Positions 850 to 1,760 of a DNA stretch of 40,586 nucleotides are shown here, one piece after another. A program made the translations under genes and the position numbers. The stretch lies in the NCBI RefSeq assembly GCF_013816785.1, contig NZ_JACDDV010000014.1:1-40586 (forward strand), in the 5' to 3' direction. The notes under the pieces were generated by a model. It saw nothing but the letters and a program-made list of their open reading frames with translations, made no database searches and was not told the DNA's origin. How positions within the stretch are numbered: the first letter of the stretch is position 1; every line of letters begins with the position of its first letter. Source of the stretch: Sphingomonas sp. Lineage in GTDB: Bacteria > Pseudomonadota > Alphaproteobacteria > Sphingomonadales > Sphingomonadaceae.

Positions 850-1218
850 GTGCCTTCCACCCACATCGCGGCGATGTGGACTCGGGAAAAGTGGCGGACG
901 TTCATCGACCATCCGGTGGTCGAATGGACCCTTTTCGTCACCGGGATCCTGTTGATGATCGCTGCGATTCCGGTCGGCGCGTTGCCGGGACCCGGCGGTA
1001 TCTTCGTGTTCGCGGCTGGGTTGGCGCTGGTTCTCAAGACTAGCATGTGGGCCAAGCGCCGTTATGTCCATTTCAAGCGCTGGCAACCCAAGGCCGGCCG
1101 CTGGGCCGACTGGGGGCTTCGCCGCCAAAGCTTCCAGCGCCGCGAAGCGCTACGCAAGGAACAGCCGGCCGAACCGGAGCCCTCTTTGACTGCCGATGAA
1201 GTCGGCGACCGGCGTTGA
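850..1218 (+). CDS. Small membrane protein, PGPGW-type
   Basis: This is a 122-residue protein with one long hydrophobic stretch (about residues 26-64: TLFVTGILLMIAAIPVGAL, then a PGPGG turn, then IFVFAAGLALVLK). The pattern is two membrane helices joined by a Pro-Gly-Pro-Gly turn, as in the putative transmembrane PGPGW family. The C-terminal third is basic and rich in Arg, Lys and Trp and is probably cytoplasmic. The first codon is GTG at 850; an in-frame ATG at 874 (MWTREKW) is an equally reasonable start and would give 114 residues. It diverges from comM and is followed by a terminator-like hairpin before rpmH. The function of the family is unknown. Confidence 0.75.
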   Translation: MPSTHIAAMWTREKWRTFIDHPVVEWTLFVTGILLMIAAIPVGALPGPGGIFVFAAGLALVLKTSMWAKRRYVHFKRWQPKAGRWADWGLRRQSFQRREALRKEQPAEPEPSLTADEVGDRR

Positions 1219-1237
1219 CTTTGGCGACCTCTGCACG

Positions 1238-1251
1238 TATCGGCGCCGATA
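1238..1251. repeat. 14-bp perfect palindrome upstream of rpmH/rnpA
   Basis: TATCGGCGCCGATA is its own reverse complement. It sits 6 bp before the terminator-like hairpin and about 45 bp before the rpmH start. It could be an operator or part of leader RNA structure; nothing else identifies it. Confidence 0.4.
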
Positions 1252-1256
1252 ACAGC

Positions 1257-1277
1257 GGCCGCTTCGGCGGCCCTTTT
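1257..1277 (+). terminator. Rho-independent-like hairpin with TTCG loop
   Basis: GGCCGC-TTCG-GCGGCC forms a perfect 6-bp GC stem closed by a TTCG tetraloop, followed by CTTTT. It would terminate the preceding membrane-protein gene. It ends only 18-25 nt before the rnpA and rpmH start codons, so it could instead act as a leader hairpin or attenuator if the rpmH promoter lies upstream of it. Confidence 0.6.
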
Positions 1278-1295
1278 CATTAGACTTTCGAAGGC

Positions 1296-1760
1296 ATGAG
1301 CGATGAAGCGCACTTTTCAGCCGAGCAACCTGGTCCGCGCGCGCCGGCACGGCTTCCGTCACCGCAGCTCGACGGTCGGCGGCCGCAAGATTCTGAACGC
1401 CCGCCGCGCTCGCGGCCGCAAGAAGCTCAGCGCCTAATCACCCTTACGCGCCGCGCCGACTTTCTCGCTGCCAACCGCGGCAAACGCGCGCCCATGCCCG
1501 GGTTTGTTCTTCTCGTTCGCCCGCGCGATGACTCGGACGCAACCATCCGCGTTGGCTTCACCGTGACCAAGAAGATCGGCAACGCGGTCGTCCGCAACCG
1601 GATGAAGCGCCGATTCCGCGCGCTGGTGCGCGAGACCTTCCCCGACCATGGCATCGCCGGCGCCGACCATGTGCTGATCGGTCGCGCCGGGGGGATCGAA
1701 CGTGACTATGCCAGCCTCGCCGCGGACCTGAAGCGCGCGCTGGCTAAGCTGACCGCATGA
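1296..1760 (+). CDS. rnpA: Ribonuclease P protein component, probably N-terminally extended over rpmH
   Basis: This is the protein subunit of RNase P, which helps the catalytic RNA mature the 5' ends of tRNAs. The canonical RnpA domain covers about residues 48-154: [16 protein letters not shown], then [17 protein letters not shown] and the RNR-motif helix [14 protein letters not shown]. Between the rpmH stop and the conserved domain there is no ATG, GTG or TTG in this frame; the codons there read CGC CTA ATC ACC. The next ATG (residue 67) would remove conserved residues. The only standard start is ATG 1296, which adds about 47 Pro/Arg-rich residues encoded out of frame over the whole of rpmH. 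A GAAGG motif at 1290-1294 is close to this start and 8 nt from the rpmH start. An unusual start such as CTA or ATC near 1435 cannot be excluded. The stop overlaps the yidD ATG. Confidence 0.9.
1303..1437 (+). CDS. rpmH: 50S ribosomal protein L34
   Basis: This 44-residue basic protein of the large ribosomal subunit begins [19 protein letters not shown] and ends [10 protein letters not shown], the near-invariant L34 pattern and full family length. Its start has a GAAGG motif at 1290-1294 with 8-nt spacing. It heads the conserved rpmH-rnpA-yidD-yidC cluster. The whole gene lies inside the rnpA open frame in the +1 phase; the two ATG codons are separated by four bases (AGCG), so both could share one ribosome binding site. 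Confidence 0.98.

Follow-up and report, generated by a model that had tools for sequence, protein, structure and literature searches.

The question raised by this locus is where translation of the RNase P protein (RnpA) begins, as no standard start codon stands between rpmH, the gene of ribosomal protein L34, and the conserved part of rnpA. The stretch analysed, called the window below, is 40,586 nucleotides (nt) of contig NZ_JACDDV010000014.1 of Sphingomonas sp. An earlier note, made from its letters alone, had proposed that rpmH is nested out of frame in an N-terminally extended rnpA. The nested layout is directly observed in the window, with both ATGs, the rpmH stop and the codon ATC 1437 at the positions which that note had given. 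Based on comparison with related genomes, we consider it highly probable that rpmH lies wholly within rnpA in another frame and that RnpA is translated from AUG 1296.

Layout of the two genes

The features needed here are as follows; SD denotes Shine-Dalgarno and negative positions such as -7 are relative to the start of rpmH.

1296..1760, + strand: rnpA, RNase P protein, read from the ATG at -7; 154 amino acids including a 47-residue N-terminal extension (open reading frame, Pfam PF00825, conservation of phase and start)
1303..1437, + strand: rpmH, ribosomal protein L34, 44 amino acids, fully within rnpA in a different frame (Pfam PF00468, 3.6e-21)
1296..1298, + strand: proposed rnpA start ATG at -7 of rpmH (conserved start codon in relatives)
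1296..1436, + strand: RnpA N-terminal extension, predicted disordered, mostly overprinted on rpmH (AlphaFold2 confidence)
1290..1294, + strand: SD-like GAAGG, 8 nt 5' of the rpmH ATG and 1 nt 5' of the rnpA ATG
1437..1439, + strand: junction codon ATC, no conserved start (column variable among loci of the genus)
1440..1751, + strand: RnpA core domain (PF00825 match)

The two ATGs (ATGAGCGATG) occupy 1296-1298 for rnpA and 1303-1305 for rpmH, with 4 nt in between and 7 nt from start to start; the "four bases" of the earlier note are right for the gap and not for the distance between starts. Stop codons aside, the rnpA open reading frame comprises 154 codons and rpmH 44; the rpmH stop TAA (1435-1437) overlaps the rnpA-frame codon ATC 1437-1439. 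Pfam places Ribonuclease_P on residues 49-152 of the 154-residue product (PF00825, 73.6 bits against a cut-off of 22.3) and L34 on residues 1-44 of 44, its full length (PF00468, 75.3 bits against a cut-off of 25). In the rnpA frame, the closest stop 5' of ATG 1296 is TAG 1281. The only standard starts of this frame between 1296 and 1520 are ATG 1296 and ATG 1494, the second of which is within the domain, in agreement with the claim that ATG 1296 is the only standard start before the conserved domain. The codon ATC 1437 is the sole ATC, ATT, ATA or CTG codon of the frame between 1296 and 1500.

The Pro/Arg-rich extension, estimated at about 47 residues in the earlier note, counts exactly 47, including 9 Pro and 8 Arg. 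In an AlphaFold2 model based on 39 sequences, block means of the predicted local distance difference test are 43-49 for residues 1-40, 66 for residues 41-50, and 85-93 from residue 51 onward. The extension looks like a by-product of L34 read in another frame.

A first alternative is that RnpA begins at the internal ATG 1494 (Met67), the next standard start in frame. As the RnpA domain begins at residue 49, such a start would cut into the domain; in the modelled fold, the first strand and first helix would be lost along with most of the strand that follows (residues 47-49, 53-59 and 63-67), and the codon at this position is ATG in just 34 of 64 loci of the genus. We give next to no credence to this start.

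Start codons and register of rnpA in related genomes

In order to compare the RnpA start of the window with that of relatives, RnpA was searched in four sets of genomes. In the genus, 68 of 71 genomes matched and DNA was read for 67; from named genomes, the best 80 of 405 confirmed loci were used and DNA was read for all 80. The family set had 116 matches in 119 genomes (DNA read for 91 of the 114 matched outside the genus), and the class set 186 in 193 (DNA read for 66 of the 182 matched outside the family), the class sample consisting of the better matches and not being random. The named loci are labelled Sphingomonas in 60 of 80 cases, the rest being Stakelama, Allosphingosinicella, Hephaestia, Rhizorhabdus, Alterirhizorhabdus, Sphingobium and Novosphingobium. 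Both rpmH and RnpA were mapped in 293 of 304 loci (66 genus, 80 named, 87 family and 60 class); the 11 left unmapped had no rpmH motif found, and genome G060 was left out as well for its partial match. Around rpmH, 281 of the mapped loci are unique. One locus, L147 (genome G013), was set by hand as frame 2 (the rnpA-type frame), open, with a gap of 17 and no junction start; this setting applies to counts over the 281 unique loci and not to those over 293 or 64 loci. The RnpA match of L147 is split over two frames 3' of the junction, probably due to a sequence error, with the first segment in register and a junction of the nested type.

Conservation of the upstream start was directly observed. 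A start codon is present at -7 of rpmH in all 66 mapped loci of the genus (65 ATG, 1 TTG). The earlier note had asked whether the extension remains open and the junction start is absent in close relatives, and had named a stop in the extension frame together with a junction GTG or TTG as evidence to the contrary. In 65 of the 66 loci the rnpA frame stays open through rpmH and the stretch between junction and core lacks ATG, GTG and TTG, and the contrary pattern is not seen in those 65, one of which (L139) has a TTG within rpmH in the rnpA frame. Among named loci the frame is open and in register in 80 of 80, and 75 have ATG at -7 (54 without a further start and 21 with one). All five named loci without a -7 start carry GTG at +20, as counted from the first base of the rpmH stop, and their frame is open. 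A junction GTG thus exists in 5 of 80 named loci, those without the -7 start. Many sphingomonads share the -7 state, so that it does not stem from a loss that happened recently in this genome.

Over unique loci, no other start lies between -7 and the core in 127 of 156 with ATG at -7, versus 8 of 113 without a -7 start. Conversely, 132 of the 135 unique loci that are open and have no start between -7 and the core possess a -7 start (127 ATG, 4 TTG, 1 GTG), and the remaining 3 have another in-frame start further upstream. A pattern search of the phylum, restricted to rpmH genes starting with ATG, found ATG at -7 in 7 of 299 genomes, namely 6 of 13 of the family and 1 of 286 others. The sole match outside the family (G476) has rnpA outside the -7 frame and was taken as chance.

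These counts bear on a second alternative, in which RnpA begins at a non-canonical junction codon (AUC 1437) by termination and reinitiation after rpmH. ATC 1437 overlaps the rpmH stop, AUU and AUC starts exist in bacteria, and a few loci of family or class have no standard start before the core and nothing usable upstream: L176, L212, L215, L256 and L263, in which the frame is closed (the anchor of L263 being unsure, with an RnpA match that begins only at residue 17), and L316, which has a stop at -7. On the other side, the junction column, when located by its distance from the core, shows 17 different codons across 64 loci of the genus, and in 19 of the 64 ATC, ATT, ATA and CTG are also absent between the rpmH stop and the core. 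Reinitiation further leaves the kept register, described next, and the -7 start itself unexplained. We regard this alternative as quite unlikely. In 9 of the 64 loci, the first 30 core codons are without any standard start.

The kept register, also a direct observation, is the strongest evidence for the -7 start. rnpA is in register with the -7 position in 155 of 156 unique loci with ATG-7, versus 49 of 113 unique loci without a -7 start. In the latter the three frames divide as 49/39/25, with 23/20/10 of 53 in the family alone, and the mapped class loci divide as 23/19/18 of 60. We placed part of the loci on a YidC protein tree (151 tips, quick method; the sets with ATG-7 and without a start exclude 5 tips with GTG or TTG at -7). 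Over 111 ATG-7 tips, excluding the exceptional locus L027 described below, the distance from the rpmH stop to the core needs 34 changes, with 0 changes of frame, versus 25 length changes and 12 frame changes over 34 tips without a -7 start (Fisher p 4.6e-6 without L027 and 3.6e-5 with it). Some of these insertions and deletions fall within the N-terminus of RnpA, where any model would have them in frame; for these the tips without a -7 start serve as control. The 26 tips having both ATG-7 and a further start underwent 18 length changes and 0 frame changes, which suggests that the -7 start is probably used there, or was until recently.

The exception, L027 (genome G029), keeps ATG-7, but the frame opened by this ATG stops short of the RnpA core. 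Right after the rpmH stop it has a 265-bp insertion (L027:1819-2083) with 23-nt perfect terminal inverted repeats, within which the SD-like GAGGAGGG lies a few bases 5' of an ATG whose frame enters the RnpA core. From this sequence it looks like the nest was broken and a new start took over.

The open frame was treated with more caution. Of 90 non-nested loci of family and class, 49 also have the rnpA-type frame open through the whole of rpmH, and as evidence on its own an open frame was set aside as weak. By these comparisons, what goes beyond chance is the conserved -7 start, the absent junction start and the kept register, and not the open frame alone. None of the 293 mapped loci has frame 1 of rpmH open, so any rpmH nest must use frame 2, which is often open; this suggests why the nest could recur. 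Stop avoidance was then evaluated at rpmH wobble positions. No in-frame stop occurs inside rpmH in the 156 ATG-7 loci; a wobble T that would create a stop in the rnpA frame is present at 0 of 851 sites in these loci, versus 64 of 631 sites where the -7 start is absent (113 loci), while T at other wobble positions amounts to 670 of 4798 and 881 of 3333, respectively. Within the first 22 rpmH codons the stop-making T is found at 0 of 410 sites with ATG-7 and 25 of 306 without a -7 start.

The last count is relevant to a third alternative, namely that ribosomes shift into the -1 frame close to the 3' end of rpmH and make an L34-RnpA fusion. rnpA does sit in the -1 frame relative to rpmH, and a frameshift would likewise fix the register. 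However, with a frameshift at the end of the gene there would be no need to avoid stops in the first 22 codons of rpmH, and the frameshift explains neither the -7 start in 132 of 135 loci, nor the TTG in its place in 4 of them, nor the junction GTG where the -7 start is lost. Such a fusion seems extremely improbable.

Translation of RnpA from the -7 start has strong comparative evidence in its favour, judging from these sequences; several points weigh against it. Among the 113 loci without a -7 start, 8 have no standard start from that point to the core, which shows that ATG-7 loci are not alone in lacking a junction start; three of the 8 (L230, L253 and L260) have an upstream in-frame start, and L176, L212, L215, L256 and L263 have none. 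A further start is present in 29 of 156 ATG-7 loci (in 28 of them from the junction onward and in 1 within rpmH), and the -7 start therefore need not be the sole one everywhere. In the family without a -7 start, T occurs at 13 of 294 stop-making sites versus 372 of 1604 other sites, so that the nest does not account for the whole of the depression. Most control tips of the tree belong to more remote relatives (20 class, 10 family and 4 named), and Fisher values over loci treat as independent what is related by descent. With 7 changes, the -7 state is stable on the YidC tree; this left an independent-pairs test of -7 start against junction start with 3 pairs on supported branches, too few for significance and without power. 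Finally, the SD-like GAAGG is just 1 nt from AUG 1296, which is poor for SD-driven initiation.

Initiation region and a possible competition of start codons

Two features lie 5' of the pair of genes.

1215..1243, + strand: promoter-like TTGACT, 17 nt, TATCGG, a putative promoter 5' of the rpmH/rnpA pair
1257..1279, + strand: leader hairpin and T-rich stretch, 3' of the promoter-like site and 5' of the two starts

TTGAC is found inside -110 to -60 in 136 of 144 loci; a sigma-70 consensus scan listed no promoter at 1215-1243. The hairpin consists of a 7-bp GC stem with a T-run about 30 nt 5' of rpmH. Its stem pairs are kept in 121-130 of 130 unique leaders of the genus and named sets, with a few compensatory changes, and a stricter test for a hairpin plus T-run was positive in 57 of 144 loci versus 27 of 717 control stretches. 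A search of the leader against Rfam gave no family above threshold. By its sequence the hairpin could be a terminator of the upstream gene, an attenuator of the leader, or both.

At the starts themselves, the positions -7 to -4 (ATGA) have 1.74-1.94 bits of conservation over 139 unique loci of the genus and named sets, with 1.68 bits at -2, and the SD positions -11 to -9 fall below -7 to -4 (1.00, 1.58 and 1.01 bits). Among 133 nested loci, 39 are without a 4-nt SD match; in the others, among the 130 of 133 listed, it lies 6-9 nt 5' of the rpmH AUG. A fourth alternative may be considered at this point, that the -7 ATG is merely part of the rpmH ribosome-binding region (for example as TGA at -6, in frame with rpmH) and that the frame is open by chance. 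Conservation of ATGA as a block, along with that of -2, would fit this alternative, as would a frame 2 that is often open anyway in non-nested loci. It does not account for the 34 spacer-length changes without a change of frame or for the absent downstream start, and we hold it to be very unlikely.

If RnpA is translated from the -7 start, translation would begin at AUG 1296, read all of rpmH out of frame, pass the rpmH stop and enter the RnpA core. The product would be a 154-residue RnpA with a disordered Pro/Arg-rich extension of 47 residues, and L34 would be made from the rpmH AUG 7 nt downstream in the same mRNA region. The ribosome binding site that the earlier note took to be shared is a single SD-like site, which may serve both starts. 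Since this site is spaced for rpmH and nearly touches the rnpA AUG, initiation would presumably be mostly that of L34 and in a minority of cases that of RnpA, the competition of the two start codons setting a low RnpA:L34 ratio. Cells need more copies of a ribosomal protein than of an RNase P subunit, and initiation biased to L34 would suit this.

Tentatively, and with somewhat less than even confidence, we propose that in sphingomonads a single 30S docking site in a short leader splits initiation between L34, at the right SD distance, and RnpA, whose AUG is 7 nt upstream with improper SD spacing. Ribosome assembly and 5' maturation of tRNA might then share a fixed and possibly regulated ratio, and the arrangement may have arisen independently of Thermus, as L34 leaves one other frame open. 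We infer the use of AUG 1296, the RnpA:L34 ratio and any benefit of linkage from the comparisons above. Natural variants, namely TTG at -7, a lost -7 start where a junction GTG is present, and the insertion with a new start, make start-site competition testable.

Known systems, divergent loci and neighbouring genes

The nested rpmH/rnpA of Thermus was reportedly described by Feltens et al. in PNAS in 2003. According to the part of PMC9841429 (2022) that deals with it, the Thermus site is AUGGAUG, with starts 4 nt apart and 1 nt between them. As far as that part goes, both systems have rpmH fully inside the rnpA reading frame, out of frame, with two AUGs adjoining at the rpmH start, and by arithmetic the offsets of 4 nt (Thermus) and 7 nt (here) give an identical relative frame. 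The resemblance to Thermus pointed out in the earlier note thus extends to the nest and the adjoining AUGs and not to the spacing, which is 7 nt in the window and its relatives; in addition, the SD-like site here is 1 nt from the upstream AUG and spaced for rpmH only. The present nest also differs in belonging to another phylum (Alphaproteobacteria), in being kept through large spacer changes, and in being known from sequence alone.

The same part of PMC9841429 gives ambiguous AUGUG/GUGUG starts in E. coli at pqiA, tamA and narQ. These likewise have two starts in one initiation region and in different frames, although they overlap in E. coli and are separate here. The alternative pqiA reading frame is short and, in E. 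coli, of unclear expression (PMC9841429, in part), whereas both frames here encode known conserved proteins. The ordinary alphaproteobacterial rpmH-rnpA operon shares the gene order and both protein families; it differs from the sphingomonad nest by a standard start in the rnpA frame, which 59 of 60 mapped class loci have either within rpmH or from its stop onward, and by its mixed frames.

A literature search over titles and abstract openings of open-licence papers found nothing on such a nest in sphingomonads. If a common, culturable group has it, many free-living bacteria would make two conserved housekeeping proteins from overlapping frames, and the N-terminus of RnpA would be wrong wherever a gene finder places its start elsewhere.

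Some family loci have an open frame, no junction start and an in-frame start upstream of rpmH: ATG at -22 in L253, ATG at -25 in L260 and L321, and GTG at -46 with TTG at -19 in L230. They are possibly other forms of the same nest. The genus of L253 offered no further genome for comparison; in that of L260 (5 loci), the -25 ATG is common to L321 and absent from L320, L322 and L323.

No ATG, GTG or TTG before the core is present in L176, L212, L215, L256 and L263 (frame closed in or after rpmH), L316 (stop at -7) or L322 (open, no start); non-canonical starts or sequence errors are possible in these loci. A second nested lineage outside the family (genome G284, GTG at -7, L276) was considered and not upheld by 5 loci from 6 genomes of its genus. 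There, L313 (G284) and L314 have GTG-7 and an open frame, L315 has the same GTG with a stop at +20, L316 has its stop at -7, and L317 has GTG at -10 instead.

Downstream in the window, yidD begins at 1757 and yidC at 2006, rnpA-yidD-yidC being the usual neighbourhood. The rnpA stop and the yidD start overlap as ATGA at 1757-1760.
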